The position numbers and the translations under genes are program-made. From Cyclonatronum proteinivorum (GTDB taxonomy: Bacteria > Bacteroidota > Rhodothermia > Balneolales > Cyclonatronaceae), in assembly GCF_003353065.1 (NCBI RefSeq), contig NZ_CP027806.1, positions 1,691,353-1,755,352 on the forward strand: DNA of 64,000 bases. Reading direction: 5' to 3'. Numbering within the stretch: the first letter of the stretch is position 1; each line of letters opens with the position of its first letter. The notes below the pieces were generated by a model. The model worked only from the letters and a program-made list of their open reading frames with translations. It searched no databases and was not told where the DNA came from. Of this stretch, positions 4,890 through 33,594 are shown in pieces.

Positions 4890-5744
4890 ATGAAAGATTT
4901 TTTTGAAAAGCTGTTTAATAGAGAAATCACGCAGGAAGAGCGTTTCGGGCTTGGTGTAAGCGTTGCAGCGCACCTTGTGCTGATTTTGCTGGCCTGGCTG
5001 ATTTTTAACCCCGAACCCGAACAGGACCGCATTGCGCTGATGGAGGTCACCCTTGGTGAGTTCGCGCAGGGCGCCCCGGTACCGCGCGCACCTGAACCCG
5101 AGCCTGAGCCTGTGCGACCGGAACCTACCCCCCCGCCGCCCCGGCCGACACCTGTGCCCCCGGCAGAAGCTACTACGCCGGTTGAGCTGCCGCAACAGCC
5201 GGAACCGGTAGTCAGTGAAGAGGTGATTGTGAGTCCGCCGGTCACGGAGATTGAGCCTGAGGTTATTCCGGAACCGGAGCCAGAGCCTGAACCCGAGCCC
5301 GAACCGGAACCGCTGCCTGAACCGGAACCTGAGCCCGAACCCGAAACAGAGCCTGATCCGACGCCGGAGCCCCGTCCGCGTGCAGGGTCGCTGATTAGCG
5401 GTCAGCCTGACAACCGTACGCAGGACGCGCAGCAGGAGGGCAGCGCGCGTGACCCAGACCGTTCGGCTCCCTACATTCTCGACTGGGAGGGTGACATCAG
5501 CCGGCAGCCGCAGGTGAATCCGCTGCCGAGATACACCGTTGATGTGGAAGGCGTTATCACGGTGCGTTTTGCCGTTCGGCCGGATGGTACCGTTGCTTCG
5601 GTCACGCCGCTGCGGCGTACCGATCCGCAGCTTGAAAATGAGGTCATCCGTACGGTTCGAAACTGGCGGTTTAACCGGCTGCCGTCCGGCGTACCGCAGG
5701 AGGTGCAGCACGGTACCGTGACCTTCCGCTTTGTACTTGACTAA
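4890..5744 (+). CDS. tonB: TonB-family energy transducer
   Basis: The start was put at the ATG at 4890; a TTG nine bases upstream is in frame but less likely. The 284-residue protein has one N-terminal signal-anchor helix (about 22-43). A long periplasmic linker of Pro-Glu repeats follows (about 65-165), then a C-terminal TonB domain (about 200-284) with [15 protein letters not shown] and RNWRF motifs. The Pro-Glu stretch is expected to be a stiff rod spanning the periplasm. It would carry energy from ExbB/ExbD to outer-membrane receptors such as the barrel at the window start. It closes the exbB-exbD-tonB unit and is followed by a strong terminator. Confidence 0.9.
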
Positions 5745-24131: not shown

Positions 24132-25648
24132 CTCAACTTTCGCACTTCGACAAAAACGGCGCCTAAGTAGCTATTAATTATACACATAAAAATAGGACAA
24201 GCCTTCGATTTTTCTTATATTGTGTTTTTCGCTAAACCAATTAAAATCAATCTAAAAGACCTGTCCTATGCTTGATAAGTTAACACTTTCTTCGGTAATA
24301 AACACCCCTTGGGTTCTTGCGTGGTTCAAAAAGTTTTGTGACAGCAAACAACTCAAGCAAGCAGGGTTCTACAAGCGTGCCGGCATGGGGATTGCTCAGT
24401 TGCTCCACCTTTTGGTCGTACTACCCATGACCCACCTAAAGGTTTATACTTTCAGTGGTGACTCCCTGCCCGTGGCCGGTCGTGATGCGTTCTACCGCTT
24501 GTTAAGCAACACCAGCTATGACTGGCGCATGCTATTGTTATCTATTGCCCTGAAGATGACCCGTCATTTTGATACCCTCACTGATGATGATCAGCCCCGC
24601 TATCTTATTTTCGACGATACCGGCTACAAGCGCGATCGCAGTAAATGTGTTGAATATCTGGGTCGTCAACATGATCACAGCCATGGCAGGTATTTCCGCG
24701 GCTTTAGGATGCTCACCGCGGTCTGGAGCGACGGACATAGCTGCCTGCCCTTGGGTTTCGAACTGCTTACCAATGAGGACGCCGACAAACGTATCGGTCC
24801 GGATCCTAAAGTTGACAAGCGCACCAATGGCGGCAAACGCGTGATCGCGGCCACGCAAAAGGCCACCGATCTGACCATCACCATGGCCCAAAGCGCATAT
24901 AATCATAAGTTTAAGATGGATTATGTGCTTTTTGACAGTTGGTTCGCATTTCCCCAAGTGATCAAGGAAGTGGCCAAACATACACCTGTAATCTGCCGGG
25001 GCAAGAACACAGCGGCATTGAAATTCAAGCACCAGCAAAAAATATACAGTGTTGAAAGCCTGCCTTTAATATTCAAGAAAGGCGGACAGACCTTCAAAAA
25101 TCCTGACATTATCGGCAGTGCAGTCGTTGAGTTGCTAAATACGAATCTGAAAGTCCGTGTGGTAGTGGTTACCAACAGACATGACCCCGACAAGAAGATT
25201 GTCTTTATTTCCACTGATACGCAGCTAAGCGCCGATGAAATCTGCTGCATTTACGCCCGCAGATGGGACATCGAGGTGTGCTTTAAAGCCATTAAACAGC
25301 ACTTGGGACTGTACTGCATGCAGATGCGCGACTATAGCGGTCTGATCGGTTGCTGCAGCGTTGTTATCATCAGATATCTTATGCTGGCCTATTATCATCG
25401 CGGCTGCATCGATGACAGGACGTTACCAGGGATGTTTTATGCCTGTGTTCAGCAGCTGCAGGCAGCAACCATAGAAGCCTGTATCGAAATACTGCGAGTG
25501 AAATTTAAAGAGTTCGCCGAATCTAAACAGGCCCAGCTTGTAAGCAATGTACTGGTTGAGTTTCTTCAGATGTTTGAAAACTTCAAATCCGAGATTATGG
25601 CCCAATTTGAACCGATTTTTAAGCTAAATTTGAAGTGCGAAAGTTGAG
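24132..25648 (+). mobile_element. IS4-superfamily insertion sequence, 1517 bp
   Basis: It has perfect 17-bp terminal inverted repeats, CTCAACTTTCGCACTTC and its complement. The flanking direct repeat TTGTAA (24126-24131 and 25649-25654) is a 6-bp target duplication. It holds a single complete DDE transposase gene and is inserted opposite in orientation to the IS110 transposase it disrupts. It looks intact and recent, because both ends and the duplication are undecayed. Confidence 0.93.
24268..25647 (+). CDS. IS4-family DDE transposase
   Basis: The 459-residue protein has the DDE_Tnp_1 layout: first Asp in RYLIFDDTGYKRD (about 113), second Asp in DYVLFDSWFAFP, and the C-terminal YARRWDIEVCFKAIKQHLG. 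The last carries the Y-x2-R-x3-E-x6-K signature of the IS4 superfamily. The stop codon overlaps the right terminal repeat, so the gene fills nearly the whole element. No frameshift is visible, so it is probably functional. Confidence 0.93.
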   Translation: MLDKLTLSSVINTPWVLAWFKKFCDSKQLKQAGFYKRAGMGIAQLLHLLVVLPMTHLKVYTFSGDSLPVAGRDAFYRLLSNTSYDWRMLLLSIALKMTRHFDTLTDDDQPRYLIFDDTGYKRDRSKCVEYLGRQHDHSHGRYFRGFRMLTAVWSDGHSCLPLGFELLTNEDADKRIGPDPKVDKRTNGGKRVIAATQKATDLTITMAQSAYNHKFKMDYVLFDSWFAFPQVIKEVAKHTPVICRGKNTAALKFKHQQKIYSVESLPLIFKKGGQTFKNPDIIGSAVVELLNTNLKVRVVVVTNRHDPDKKIVFISTDTQLSADEICCIYARRWDIEVCFKAIKQHLGLYCMQMRDYSGLIGCCSVVIIRYLMLAYYHRGCIDDRTLPGMFYACVQQLQAATIEACIEILRVKFKEFAESKQAQLVSNVLVEFLQMFENFKSEIMAQFEPIFKLNLKCES

Positions 25649-26567
25649 TTGTAATAGGGCTGCCGCTTGTGCGACAAAATATTGCCCACCGGCATATACA
25701 TCGCTGCCCTGATGCGCGCATTGCCCTGTTTCGACATTTTTCTCTTGCCTTTGTGTTTGCCTGACTCCTTAACCACTATATCGTAACCCGCATAGCTGAT
25801 CAGCTGGCTTCTTGACGTAAAGTATTCAAAGCCCAGCGTCTCTGCCAGCACCGTGGAGATTGTAATCAAACCTATCGACGGAATCGACTTCAGCTTATCC
25901 ACCTTTTCTTCGATCTCCGGATCCGAATCCAGATGCCTGGTGATCAGCTTTTCAAGCTTGGTGATCTGTTTATCCAAGGCAGCGATGGTTTGCTGGACAA
26001 TCTTGCGCGTATCTTTGATAGCGTAAGCGCTGTAATTGAGAGCGTGAAGCTGGTTTTTGAGCTGGGTCCGCTGTTCTACCAACGCGCCACGGGTACGCGT
26101 GAGCTGACGCAGCTCGCTCCAATAGGGTTTAATGCCCCGCCATAGCTGCAGCTTCTTGCGCGCACCCATCAGGGCTAGCCCGCGGGCATCAATACGGTCG
26201 GTTTTGTTCTTGAATCCCTCAGACTCATTGAATCTACGCGCCTGACTGGGTAAAACCACGCTTAATGCCCATTCGGGGTGGTTATCAAACAGGTGCAGGG
26301 CAACCCGCTCGTAATACACACCGGTGGCTTCCATGGTGATGCGCACCGGTGCAGGCTGTTTGGACTCCCATTTGGTGACCCAGCTGACAAACTTGGGCAG
26401 CTCTGCCTGGGTGTTGTTAAACTTTCTGGAGGAGCGTACACGCTCGGTCTGTTCAACAGGGTTATACTCGAGGATGCAGGCCTTGAAGTCGTCTTTTGAG
26501 ATATCTATGCCAATGGAATAAAACATGACTAATCAATAGTTTAGTGGTGTGTTATTTGCATCCGAAG

Positions 26568-26921: not shown

Positions 26922-29153
26922 TTATTCGCTGCGGTGTGCTGGCGGGGGGAGGTTGAGCCGGGTTTCGCTTTCGTTGGCCTGTTTCACGGTTTCGCGGATG
27001 ATGGCATCAAGCTCCTTAATTTCGCTCCTTAAATACCCGATAATGTCGTTTAGCTCCGCATGTGATTTCGGACTTACATCGTCAAAATAATTACAAATGC
27101 CCAGGATGTTGGCCACAGGGCGGCGCAGCTCATGGGATTGCTGCCACGCGATCTGGCGAAAGGTCTCATTTTGTTTGAGGATAATATCCTGCCGCTTTTT
27201 GAGCTCGGTGACATCCTGCATGATCACAATGATGAATTTTTGGCCGCCCGCGGTGAAAGTGTTCAGGCTTGCGTTGACCACAATGAGCTGACCTGCTTTG
27301 TTCAGGGTAGGCAGGAAAGATTCCATGCGGGTGTTTTTGCCGCCGGCCCGGAGGTACGTTTGCTGCTTTGCCCTGTGATTTTTCCGGAGCTCTTTCGGAA
27401 TCAGGAATTCCATGCGGCGGTTGAGCACTTCTTCTTCGGTGTAGCCGTACACCTTTTCGAATTTATTGTTTACAAACTGAATGCGGAAATCTTCACAAAA
27501 GATGAGCATGGGGTCGGGAATAGCTTCAATGGTCTGCTGCAGTTTGTGTTCGCTTTCTTCAAGGAGGTTGCGGGAGTTCTGCAGCTGCTGCTCATTCTGA
27601 ACGCGTTCGCTTACATCGTGCAGGTAGCCGTTCCAGACAGTGCTGCCGTCGTTATCCCGGTAAGGTGTGGATTTGGCTTCGATCCATACTATCTGCCCGG
27701 ATTTATTTTTGATCCGGAAGGTTTGTTCCCAGTTAGTGAGGGTTTTGGCAGAGTCGAGAATCGAGGTGAAGATCCGTTTTTGATCGTCTGCGTGGATGTT
27801 GCTAAAGGCTGCGGATGCGTTGGACTGGATTTGCTCAGGGATGACATCAAAGAGTTTTGTGAGGCCCTCACTGGCAAAAGTGAAATGCATGCTGCGATCC
27901 GGGAGCATGCGGAACTGATAAATAACACCGGGTACATTCCGGCTTACCTGTTCCTGGTATTTGGCAAATTTCTGACGCTCCTGTGTTGCCCGAACCCGTA
28001 AGCTGACATCGCGCACAAGCATTAGTGCAGTGTCGCTTTGTAAGGGGGAAATGCTGGCGTCGAAATAGTTGGTTTGCTGACCATCTTCGACTGAGAAGGA
28101 GACTTGCCCGTTTTTTTTCTCATTAATCGCAGCCTTTATCTGAAGCAGCAGCATGGCAGCGGTTTCTTTTGTGAAAATATGATGCAGAAACTGCGTGGTA
28201 AGTCCGGCTGTGTCTTTTTTTCCCTGAAGCTGAATATCGGTGATACTGCCGTCGCTGCGCACAACGTACAGGTCATCGGGCAGATTGGTAAGGAGGGCGC
28301 GGCGGTATTCTTCTGCCTTTTTTCGTTCATCAATATTGGTGGTATTCAGGGTGAAGCCTACGACCTCTTTCCGGGCGCCATAAACGGGATAGTACCGGAA
28401 CTGAAACCAAAAGCCGTTGATGTTTTTGTCTTTTTTTATGGTTTTGCCAGCCAGAGCTTTTGCAGCGTCCTGTTTAAATTCCTGGAGATTTTCGGGTAGC
28501 ACAAAGTCATAAATGTTACAGCCGTTATACAGAGGCTTTCCAAACACCTGCTGGGCTGCCAGCGCAGCAGCTTTATTGAAAGATTGTAGTTTGAAATCCC
28601 GGCCAACGAGTATATGACCGTCGCTTGTGCTGTTCAGAATGGCTTCCAGCCTTACCTTGGTATCTTCTGTTTCTTTGCGGTTTTCTTCTTCTTTGGTAGC
28701 ATCATGCCCAACGGCAAGGATGCCAAGCGGATTCTGTTCCGCGTCTTGTATGAGGCTGAATTCCCAGCGGGTAAGTATCCAGCTGTCCGTGTCCGGGCCC
28801 GGTTTGCGAAGCATGAGGGTTACCGGTTGATCCGGATGCGCCATGCAGCTTACTGCAGCCTCAAGGGTCATCGCACTGTCTTCCGGGTGGATGGTATCGC
28901 TAAAATTCAACCCCCCGCGCATATCCCGCACACGTGCAAAACGGTTGTTGTAGCAAGGGTTGACATACATAATGTTACCCTGCATATCGGTTGCCAGAAC
29001 GCTGTAGGTACCTGAATTGCGCAAGACGTGCGGTACGTATTCAGCGAGAGATGATGGTTTTTTTGACACCTTAGCCGCTTCTGTTGCTGTTCTGAAATTT
29101 TTGATGATATACGGCAGGCAGTTTAACTGCAATACCGGAAGGATTGACCACAA
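26922..29153 (-). CDS. Multi-PAS sensor protein with HisKA-like end but no ATPase domain
   Basis: The 743 residues hold about five PAS-type modules. Approximate positions are 43-150 (YSVLATDMQGNIMYVNP), 165-280, 285-395, 400-530 (a PAS_3-type fold) and 545-660 (FVNNKFEKVYGYTEEEV). The C-terminal helix pair (670-743) contains SHELRRPVANILG, like a histidine-kinase dimerisation/phosphoacceptor domain. The protein stops there: no HATPase_c domain (N, G1 or G2 boxes) follows. No transmembrane helix is clear, so it is probably cytoplasmic. The TTG at 29153 is the most upstream start; the GTG near 29080 (VSKKPSS) is an alternative. Similar ATPase-less PAS proteins are common in Bacteroidota and may modulate other kinases. 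Confidence 0.82.
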   Translation of the reverse strand: MWSILPVLQLNCLPYIIKNFRTATEAAKVSKKPSSLAEYVPHVLRNSGTYSVLATDMQGNIMYVNPCYNNRFARVRDMRGGLNFSDTIHPEDSAMTLEAAVSCMAHPDQPVTLMLRKPGPDTDSWILTRWEFSLIQDAEQNPLGILAVGHDATKEEENRKETEDTKVRLEAILNSTSDGHILVGRDFKLQSFNKAAALAAQQVFGKPLYNGCNIYDFVLPENLQEFKQDAAKALAGKTIKKDKNINGFWFQFRYYPVYGARKEVVGFTLNTTNIDERKKAEEYRRALLTNLPDDLYVVRSDGSITDIQLQGKKDTAGLTTQFLHHIFTKETAAMLLLQIKAAINEKKNGQVSFSVEDGQQTNYFDASISPLQSDTALMLVRDVSLRVRATQERQKFAKYQEQVSRNVPGVIYQFRMLPDRSMHFTFASEGLTKLFDVIPEQIQSNASAAFSNIHADDQKRIFTSILDSAKTLTNWEQTFRIKNKSGQIVWIEAKSTPYRDNDGSTVWNGYLHDVSERVQNEQQLQNSRNLLEESEHKLQQTIEAIPDPMLIFCEDFRIQFVNNKFEKVYGYTEEEVLNRRMEFLIPKELRKNHRAKQQTYLRAGGKNTRMESFLPTLNKAGQLIVVNASLNTFTAGGQKFIIVIMQDVTELKKRQDIILKQNETFRQIAWQQSHELRRPVANILGICNYFDDVSPKSHAELNDIIGYLRSEIKELDAIIRETVKQANESETRLNLPPPAHRSE

Positions 29154-29443
29154 AGTTAAGTAATCGGCTATTCAATATCATAAGGATATTGTCAATACCC
29201 TTACAAACGATTTCGTTAATCAAAGCAATTGTTAATCTTTGATTAAGACAACCTGTTGTAAACGGCTGAAGCTGAACACATAAAATCATCCACAGTTTCT
29301 AATCTTTGAAAGCGCTTTTTTGATTGGTGTGAAGTATTTCTTATAGGGGTAATACCCAAAGGTTAGTTTTTCTGAAATTTCAGCTTGCTTTTAGCGGATT
29401 GCGCATTTAGGTTACAGAAAGTCAAATCACAACACACATTTTT

Positions 29444-29545
29444 ATGCACACACAACCTCACATACAACTTATCACTGTATCGGCTTCGCCTCTGGCGATC
29501 GTTGCTAGTTCTGTTGTATTGCGCCGCCGCTGTCGTACAGGGTGA
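29444..29545 (+). CDS. Arginine-rich leader peptide of the arg operon
   Basis: This 33-codon frame starts at an ATG and ends just before a terminator hairpin. Near its end it has three consecutive CGC Arg codons, one Cys codon and a CGT Arg codon (LRRRCRTG at residues 26-33), so four of the last seven residues are Arg. It lies 177 bases upstream of argF-argG-argH. Such leader peptides let the ribosome sense charged tRNA-Arg. The placement of the stop codon inside a sequence able to pair with the terminator's left arm supports this role. Confidence 0.75.
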   Translation: MHTQPHIQLITVSASPLAIVASSVVLRRRCRTG

Positions 29546-29616
29546 GGTATGCGTCGGTACGTTGGTACCCTCTTTTCCCCGCCCCGGTTAATTCACTTTA
29601 GCCGGGGCTTTTTTTT
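29540..29616 (+). promoter_or_regulatory. Arginine attenuator (antiterminator/terminator switch)
   Basis: Segment GGGTGAGG (29540-29547) spans the leader stop codon and can pair, with one mismatch and one G-U, with CCCCGCCC (29577-29584). That target overlaps the left arm of the terminator. If the ribosome stalls at the Arg codons the first segment is free to form the antiterminator; if it reaches the stop codon it covers it and the terminator forms. A small GGTAC/GTACC hairpin lies between. The pairings are read by eye, not computed. Confidence 0.6.
29581..29616 (+). terminator. Intrinsic terminator of the arg attenuator
   Basis: GCCCCGG and CCGGGGC arms flank a 14-base loop and are followed by eight T. 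It precedes, rather than follows, the arg genes, and no independent gene ends here except the leader peptide. Confidence 0.88.
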
Positions 29617-30766: not shown

Positions 30767-32041
30767 ATGAATCAATCCACTGCCTATCAGAAAGTTGCCT
30801 CGCATGAGGCTCAAAAAGGAACCTTCGACAGATGCCTGCTGCTGTACTCCGGCGGGCTCGACACCTCGGTCATGCTCAAATGGATTCAGGATGAGTACGG
30901 CTGCGAAGTCGTAGCCCTGACCGTGAACCTGGGGCAGCGTGCCGATAACATGGAGGCCATCCGAGAGAAGGCGCTCAAGCTTGGCGCGAAGGACTGCATT
31001 GTTTACGACGCCCGTGCGGAATTCGCGGAGCTGTGCATGGAAGCGGTGAAAGCCAATGCCGACTATCAGGGCGGCTACGCGCTCGGCTGTCCGCTGGGGA
31101 GGGTGATGATCTCCCAAATCGCAGTCAAAATTGCCGCGGAGTACGGTTGTGAGGTGATCGCACACGGCTGCACCGGCAAGGGCAACGATCAGGTGCGGTT
31201 TGAGGGCTACATCACGACCCTGAATCCGCAGGTCAAAATCATCGCACCGGTCCGCGAGTGGGCGATGGGCCGCGATGAGGAAATCGAATACGCCCTGAAG
31301 CACGGCATCCCCGTGGAGCAAACCCAAAAAGCACCGTATTCCTACGACGAGAACATGTGGGCCAACACGGGCGAGGGCGGCGAGATTGAAGATCCGCGGC
31401 TGATTCCGCCGCTGGAGAACATCCTGAAATGGTGCAACACCCCCAAGAATGCCCCGGATGAGGAAGAGCTGGTCGTGCTCGAATTTGAGGAAGGCAAGCC
31501 GGTCGCGTTAAACTATCAGACGCTGCCTCCTGCGGAAATCATTCAGGCCCTGAATGCGATAGGCGGCAAAAATGCAGTCGGGTACTTTCACCTGATTGAA
31601 GACCGGATTGTCGGGCTGAAGGTGCGGGGCGTGTACGAAAATCCGGCAGCGCACCTGCTCATCCAGGCGCACAAAAACCTGGAGCAGCTCGTCTCAACCC
31701 GTGAAGAAAACGAGCTCAAAACCTTCCTCGACACCAAATGGGCCTACCTCTGCTACGGCGCCAAATATTTTGAGCCGGTGATGGACAACATCCGCGCCTT
31801 TCAGGACAAACAAAACGAGAAGGTCAGCGGGAAGGTCACCCTGCGCCTCTACAAAGGCAACTGCGAGGTTGTTGCCCTCGATTCGCCCTATTCGCTGTTT
31901 GACGAGCACCTGGCGACCTTCAACAAATCCGCCGATTTCAACCAAAATGCCTCCGCCGGATTTATCGAATTGTGGAATCTCCCGCAGAAAACCGCGCATC
32001 AGGTCAAGCGCGGGAAGCTTGCGGGGGTGTCGGCACCGTAA
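30767..32041 (+). CDS. argG: Argininosuccinate synthase
   Basis: The start was put at the ATG at 30767, 37 bases after argF. The 424-residue protein has the N-type ATP pyrophosphatase P-loop LLYSGGLDTSVMLKW at the N-terminus, YALGCPLGR, and AHGCTGKGNDQVRFE, all diagnostic of argininosuccinate synthase. It joins citrulline and aspartate with ATP, the penultimate step to arginine. Its length is normal for the family. Confidence 0.96.
   Translation: MNQSTAYQKVASHEAQKGTFDRCLLLYSGGLDTSVMLKWIQDEYGCEVVALTVNLGQRADNMEAIREKALKLGAKDCIVYDARAEFAELCMEAVKANADYQGGYALGCPLGRVMISQIAVKIAAEYGCEVIAHGCTGKGNDQVRFEGYITTLNPQVKIIAPVREWAMGRDEEIEYALKHGIPVEQTQKAPYSYDENMWANTGEGGEIEDPRLIPPLENILKWCNTPKNAPDEEELVVLEFEEGKPVALNYQTLPPAEIIQALNAIGGKNAVGYFHLIEDRIVGLKVRGVYENPAAHLLIQAHKNLEQLVSTREENELKTFLDTKWAYLCYGAKYFEPVMDNIRAFQDKQNEKVSGKVTLRLYKGNCEVVALDSPYSLFDEHLATFNKSADFNQNASAGFIELWNLPQKTAHQVKRGKLAGVSAP

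Positions 32042-32301: not shown

Positions 32302-33594
<1,293 letters not shown>

Follow-up and report, generated by a model that had tools for sequence, protein, structure and literature searches.

Introduction

In the textbook account, bacterial arginine synthesis is controlled by the ArgR repressor, and attenuation is a story usually told of trp, his, leu, ilv, thr and phe. Fungi have an arginine attenuator peptide, on CPA1 and arg-2, which resembles the locus described here in tying a short leader peptide to the control of arginine synthesis. It is eukaryotic and translational, and it acts by stalling of the nascent chain at high arginine. The classical bacterial attenuators (trp, his, leu, ilv, thr and phe in Proteobacteria; trp, ilv and leuS in Actinobacteria; PMC1262725) also have a run of codons for the product in the leader, and likewise a mutually exclusive protector, antiterminator and terminator, with the terminator lying 5' of the first biosynthetic gene. 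The present case differs from them in the amino acid, which is arginine, and in a host group that is nearly without ArgR. A comparative study detected no conserved RNA structures ahead of the arginine operons of Actinobacteria, and it cites T-boxes for arginine elsewhere (PMC1262725).

Two other bacterial leaders come close. The leader frame orf34 of Salmonella speF is short and has two consecutive Arg codons at which a ribosome pause reports arginine, as proposed here, but it serves ornithine decarboxylase and the polyamines through Rho, masking of the ribosome binding site and decay by RNase G, and not through an intrinsic terminator of arginine synthesis genes (PMC6386406). The Pseudomonas aeruginosa carA leader shares a leader peptide and a proposed attenuation, for a gene feeding both arginine and pyrimidine synthesis; attenuation there is described as the pyrimidine control, with arginine acting at the transcriptional level (PMC4997734). 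We found no bacterial leader attenuator of an arginine biosynthetic operon in the open-licence literature, although the survey of Lopatovskaya et al. (2010) might hold one.

Here we analyze the region upstream of argF in a 64,000-nucleotide stretch of the genome of Cyclonatronum proteinivorum, a member of the Balneolales (the window). It very probably encodes a ribosome-mediated transcription attenuator, predicted to sense charged arginine tRNA ahead of argFGH. The kind of system is known; what is reportable is that arginine is the amino acid concerned, that the class nearly lacks ArgR, and that two separate designs occur. If attenuation has indeed taken the place of ArgR in the class, arginine would be added to the list of amino acids made under leader-peptide attenuation. 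The class also offers a natural comparison of repressor and ribosome sensing for one pathway. It also makes a search signature available for annotating short frames that are currently missed.

The leader and the argFGH operon

The original prediction, made from the letters of the window, was of a 33-codon leader ending in LRRRCRTG and stopping just before an intrinsic terminator, which in turn precedes an argFGH operon. Each of these elements is present (Table 1). The identities of argF, argG and argH were checked against NCBIfam; argF and argH score just below the curated cut-offs, and no family fits either one better.

Table 1. Features of the proposed argFGH attenuator and of the operon in the window.
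Feature	Position	Strand	Basis or remark
Candidate promoter, TTGC-N19-TAGGTT	29385..29413	+	Bacteroidota-type spacing
Leader ORF, 33 codons, MHTQPHIQLITVSASPLAIVASSVVLRRRCRTG*	29444..29545	+	translation of the window; in relatives the sequence has diverged and the Arg run is kept
5' protector arm A, ACCUCAC, leader codons 4-6; partner 29542-29548 (GUGAGGU)	29455..29461	+	centroid fold
Additional leader-internal stem-loop, AUACAAC...GUUGUAU	29462..29519	+	MFE fold; only in the closest long-leader relatives
Control codons CGC CGC CGC, Arg27-29	29522..29530	+	translation
Further Arg codon, CGT	29534-29536	+	translation
Antiterminator 5' arm B, GGGUGAGG; overlaps the leader stop UGA (29543-29545)	29540..29547	+	duplex and covariation
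Small hairpin GGUAC-GUUG-GUACC within the antiterminator loop	29556..29569	+	fold and inspection
Antiterminator 3' arm B', CCCCGCCC; overlaps the terminator 5' arm	29577..29584	+	duplex and covariation
Intrinsic terminator: stem-loop 29581-29608 (GCCCCGGTTAATTCACTTTAGCCGGGGC) and U8 (T8 in the DNA, 29609-29616)	29581..29616	+	fold and covariation
argF, ornithine carbamoyltransferase type, 335 aa	29722..30729	+	TIGR00658, E 1.2e-81, 274.3 bits against a cut-off of 280.85
argG, argininosuccinate synthase	30767..32041	+	TIGR00032, 443 bits, over cut-off
argH, argininosuccinate lyase	32302..33594	+	TIGR00838, 272.3 bits against a cut-off of 279.5, E 8.5e-81

The TTGC-N19-TAGGTT motif of the candidate promoter recurs at L001, L002 and L003, the loci of the three closest genomes, with the ATG 30-36 nt 3' of it. 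Transcription would then start at about 29420, promoter and start both being putative. Within the leader, the segment that folds into the additional stem-loop of Table 1 also encodes a conserved stretch of peptide (SASPLAI...SVV). The window genome has both in common with the two relatives nearest to it, whereas other Balneolales have shorter leaders that lack them.

Since the neighbor upstream of the leader (26922-29153) is divergent and on the minus strand, the terminator belongs to transcription entering argF. This bears on the possibility that an Arg-rich short frame has by chance come to lie before an unrelated terminator of some other transcript. Short frames are common, and the window does hold one further RRR frame followed by a terminator, at 5637-5721, the only other such site in the 64 kb. 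We rejected that site as a leader, since it is simply where a reading frame ends ahead of its own terminator. At the argF locus, the terminator cannot be the 3' end of the upstream neighbor, and the arrangement is kept at 32 of 32 loci with compensatory changes (see below). A chance arrangement is therefore exceedingly unlikely.

The second arginine operon of the same genome, argBDCJ, has no such Arg leader or terminator. Just upstream of the arg region, at 24268-26526, are two transposase-like frames on opposite strands, which overlap at 25624-25647; by eye, the second resembles IS110 transposases.

Conservation among the Balneolales

Close relatives of this argF are in metagenome-assembled genomes (MAGs) of Balneolales. 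Of 129 genomes of the order searched by similarity, 37 have an argF of this type. There are 32 loci, including the window's own, with enough sequence upstream of argF to be counted. A short frame with clustered Arg codons and then a terminator is found at all 32, the GC-rich hairpin and T-run beginning 20-53 nt past the leader stop. The leader peptides diverge widely outside of the Arg run (for example, MHTQPHIQLITVSASPLAIVASSVVLRRRCRTG, MNFSTLHTTSILSIRRRRPRA and MKFNSNYITTALSNRRSLFRV). The Arg codons themselves differ by lineage among CGC, CGT, CGG and CGA; therefore it is the arginine that has been kept and not one string of DNA.

The spacing is also kept. From the first Arg codon of the run to the antiterminator arm is 15-20 nt in 32/32 loci (18 nt in the window), and in all of them, the arm overlaps the leader stop codon or lies close to it. 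Such spacing fits the footprint of a ribosome: one halted on the first Arg codons would leave the arm free, and one that had reached the stop codon would cover it. The original prediction proposed aligning the leaders of related arg operons for conserved Arg codons and compensatory changes, and it was to be given up if the small frame or the alternative pairings were not conserved. The alignment bears it out: conservation extends to the frame, the Arg run (at 32 of 32 loci), the spacing and both alternative structures, and compensatory changes are seen in the antiterminator as well as in the terminator. Conservation and covariation of this kind argue for the ribosome-mediated arginine attenuator that it had suggested.

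The same comparison can be turned on the possibility that the leader senses a free small molecule by stalling of its nascent chain, in the manner of the fungal arginine attenuator peptide, instead of by decoding of its Arg codons. Arginine-sensing leader frames are known elsewhere, as in orf34 of Salmonella speF (PMC6386406), and the three closest genomes do conserve the peptide SASPLAI...SVVLRRRCRTG. In the order as a whole, conservation of the peptide does not reach beyond the Arg run, and the geometry of the antiterminator fits a pause at the Arg codons. Moreover, a stall at high arginine would here switch the genes on, which is the wrong sense for a biosynthetic operon. We regard sensing by the nascent chain as very unlikely.

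Outside of the order, we found no convincing Arg leader directly 5' of argF in other Bacteroidota, where argF is mostly internal to an operon or lacks such a frame. A MAG labelled Cytophagaceae (L046) has MTNSYNNIVNIRRSYRRYRRS upstream of a related argF and was excluded from the counts because it shows no clear terminator. Its argF is Balneolales-like (53% identity), MTNSYNNIVNIRRSYRRYRRS lies about 165-235 nt upstream, and by eye the start of the leader and the segment after the stop match. ArgR was not found in that genome. Possibly the argF and its leader were both transferred horizontally. Within the order, genera g6-g10, g12, g15 and g26 have many near-complete genomes with no ornithine carbamoyltransferase match to either query, which suggests widespread arginine auxotrophy or an undetected enzyme.

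Alternative pairings and the proposed switch

The original prediction further had a segment over the stop codon pairing with one that overlaps the left arm of the terminator. In the window, GGGTGAGG (29540-29547, over the TGA stop) does pair with CCCCGCCC (29577-29584), with one A/C mismatch in eight positions, at -11.3 kcal/mol; the family mean is near -17. This antiterminator is exclusive with the terminator, as B and the terminator 3' arm have the terminator 5' arm as their common partner. Most relatives have, by eye, a small hairpin inside the antiterminator loop comparable to the one in Table 1.

Covariation was examined in an alignment of 21 Balneolaceae leaders (A1). The antiterminator is paired in 91.8% of cells, whereas controls in which it was slid give 31-52%. 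Three of its pairs have changed on both sides, and 0 of 500 shuffles do as well; since relatives share kinship, such shuffle and permutation counts are inflated and are not true probabilities. The hairpin between the Arg codons and B, taken together with the terminator, is 96.6% paired as against 26-55% when slid, and five terminator pairs have changed on both sides. Four genomes share a three-way change, G-C-G to A-U-A, at columns 61, 120 and 140, which are, respectively, the antiterminator arm, the terminator 5' arm and the terminator 3' arm.

A second comparison, over the 32 loci, pairs the arms of each genome with its own partners and with those of other genomes. The terminator duplex averages -18.8 kcal/mol with its own arms and -11.7 across genomes, and the antiterminator B:B' averages -17.0 and -14.2 kcal/mol. 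The long-range helix A:A', which joins leader codons ~4-7 to a segment around or after the stop, averages -11.7 and -9.0 kcal/mol and is below -4 kcal/mol in 31 of the 32. The part of the protector is taken by the Arg-codon:B hairpin and the A:A' helix; in the window itself, the modelled contrast between no ribosome and a stalled one is weak (see below).

The switch would then operate as follows. The first ribosome would follow RNA polymerase, translating the leader. With ample Arg-tRNA, it would reach the stop codon and cover 29540-29547; the covered arm could not pair, so that the terminator at 29581-29616 would form and transcription would end before argF. With scarce Arg-tRNA, the ribosome would stall at Arg27-29, 18 nt short of the arm, and leave it free. 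The free arm would pair with 29577-29584 and block the terminator 5' arm, and argFGH would be transcribed. With no ribosome, the upstream leader RNA would largely hold the arm, and termination would be favored.

In constrained folding, the antiterminator has a mean probability across the family of 0.27 when no ribosome is present, rising to 0.75 when one occupies the first Arg codon; placing the ribosome at the stop gives 0, by construction. Thus the modelled folds shift in the direction expected for attenuation. For the window sequence, the contrast is small (0.51 with no ribosome and 0.69 stalled), and in the close relatives L002 and L003, the stalled probability is low (0.08 and 0.05). Because of these values, simple folding is seen to draw the switch less well in this genus than in Balneolaceae. 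Every feature of a classical attenuator that can be tested in sequence was found; from these, we infer the transcription, translation, stalling and response to arginine.

ArgR and known RNA families

The original prediction remarked that no argR is seen in the window, and this extends much further. A search for ArgR (PF01316), which does match control genomes, had no hit anywhere in the genome, a single contig of 4.29 Mb, or in any of the 129 Balneolales genomes. In the class, it was found in 2 of 240 genomes, one with five identical short PF01316 matches and the other with one match, and in the sampled Bacteroidota, it is present in 110 of 296. By this search, the operon would not belong to an ArgR regulon in this genome.

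Rfam contains no family for an arginine leader attenuator. Its one match over cut-off in the window is NsiR1 (RF02399), a nitrogen-stress sRNA family, at 29563-29616 with 39.8 bits against 39. The likeness to NsiR1 is in the terminator hairpin and U-run only. We rejected the identity, as the score rests on the terminator stem and the match is missing from seven related attenuator loci. Apart from this terminator-driven match, no T-box or known riboswitch covariance model in Rfam matches the locus.

These searches bear on whether arginine is read by a metabolite-binding riboswitch, a T-box or a protein-controlled leader, the short frame being incidental. The 5' region is structured, and T-boxes are cited for arginine genes in other bacteria (PMC1262725). 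The only Rfam match is the NsiR1 one, the conserved part is a translated Arg run at a fixed footprint distance and not an aptamer core, and ArgR was not found in the genome. An explanation of this type is extremely unlikely, and we continue with attenuation by the translating ribosome.

A second arginine leader, upstream of argG

Other members of the class have a different carbamoyltransferase, encoded inside an argG-DUF1611-argC-argD-argF' operon (gene names here are from the reading frames, not from a family search). Upstream of argG, we looked for a short frame in which nine residues include four or more Arg, followed by a terminator no more than 80 nt away; these criteria were developed on part of the loci, then slightly loosened and applied to all. 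An Arg leader and terminator are found 5' of argG in 45 of the 60 other class genomes tested, in several families, non-Balneolales included; an example is MTYNLCNDSRRRRFRRRLERDLCKDCV in L174 (L174:6126-6275). As a guard against chance in high-GC sequence, terminator sites 5' of argG were compared with other terminator-like sites in the same loci, and by similar criteria an Arg frame is present at 48/58 of the former and 17/251 of the latter. The 1:2 pairing is stronger within genomes than between them (-19.2 vs. -14.2, p 0.0002), and the signal for the 2:3 pairing is modest (p 0.019).

Since the terminators and leaders of the argG type do not resemble those of the argF type, it is likely, while not proven, that the two attenuators arose independently. 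We lean towards the view that, in this class, ribosome-mediated attenuation has taken over the control of arginine synthesis from ArgR, and that it has two or more origins unrelated in sequence, one on argFGH and one on argG-DUF1611-argC-argD-argF'.

Specificity of the proposed argF attenuator

A covariance model (R1) was built on the 21 Balneolaceae leaders. Its strong matches are almost exclusively 5' of argF, with the single exception of one in genome G053. R1 gave no match in the window's own genome, to which the Balneolaceae behind the model are less closely related. None of the six weak matches (E > 1e-4) that we read in other Balneolales proved to be such an Arg leader.

G053 has no argF match, and yet it keeps an RRRR leader and an intact terminator (L107:1652-1790; G053:C17:50651-50784). 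A large outer-membrane receptor-like gene begins about 340 nt downstream. This orphan attenuator is possibly a relic or a case of reuse. Another genome, G048, has two argF copies with identical scores (C2:43322-44293 and C17:15586-16557), each with a leader match; these represent either a duplication or redundancy in the assembly.
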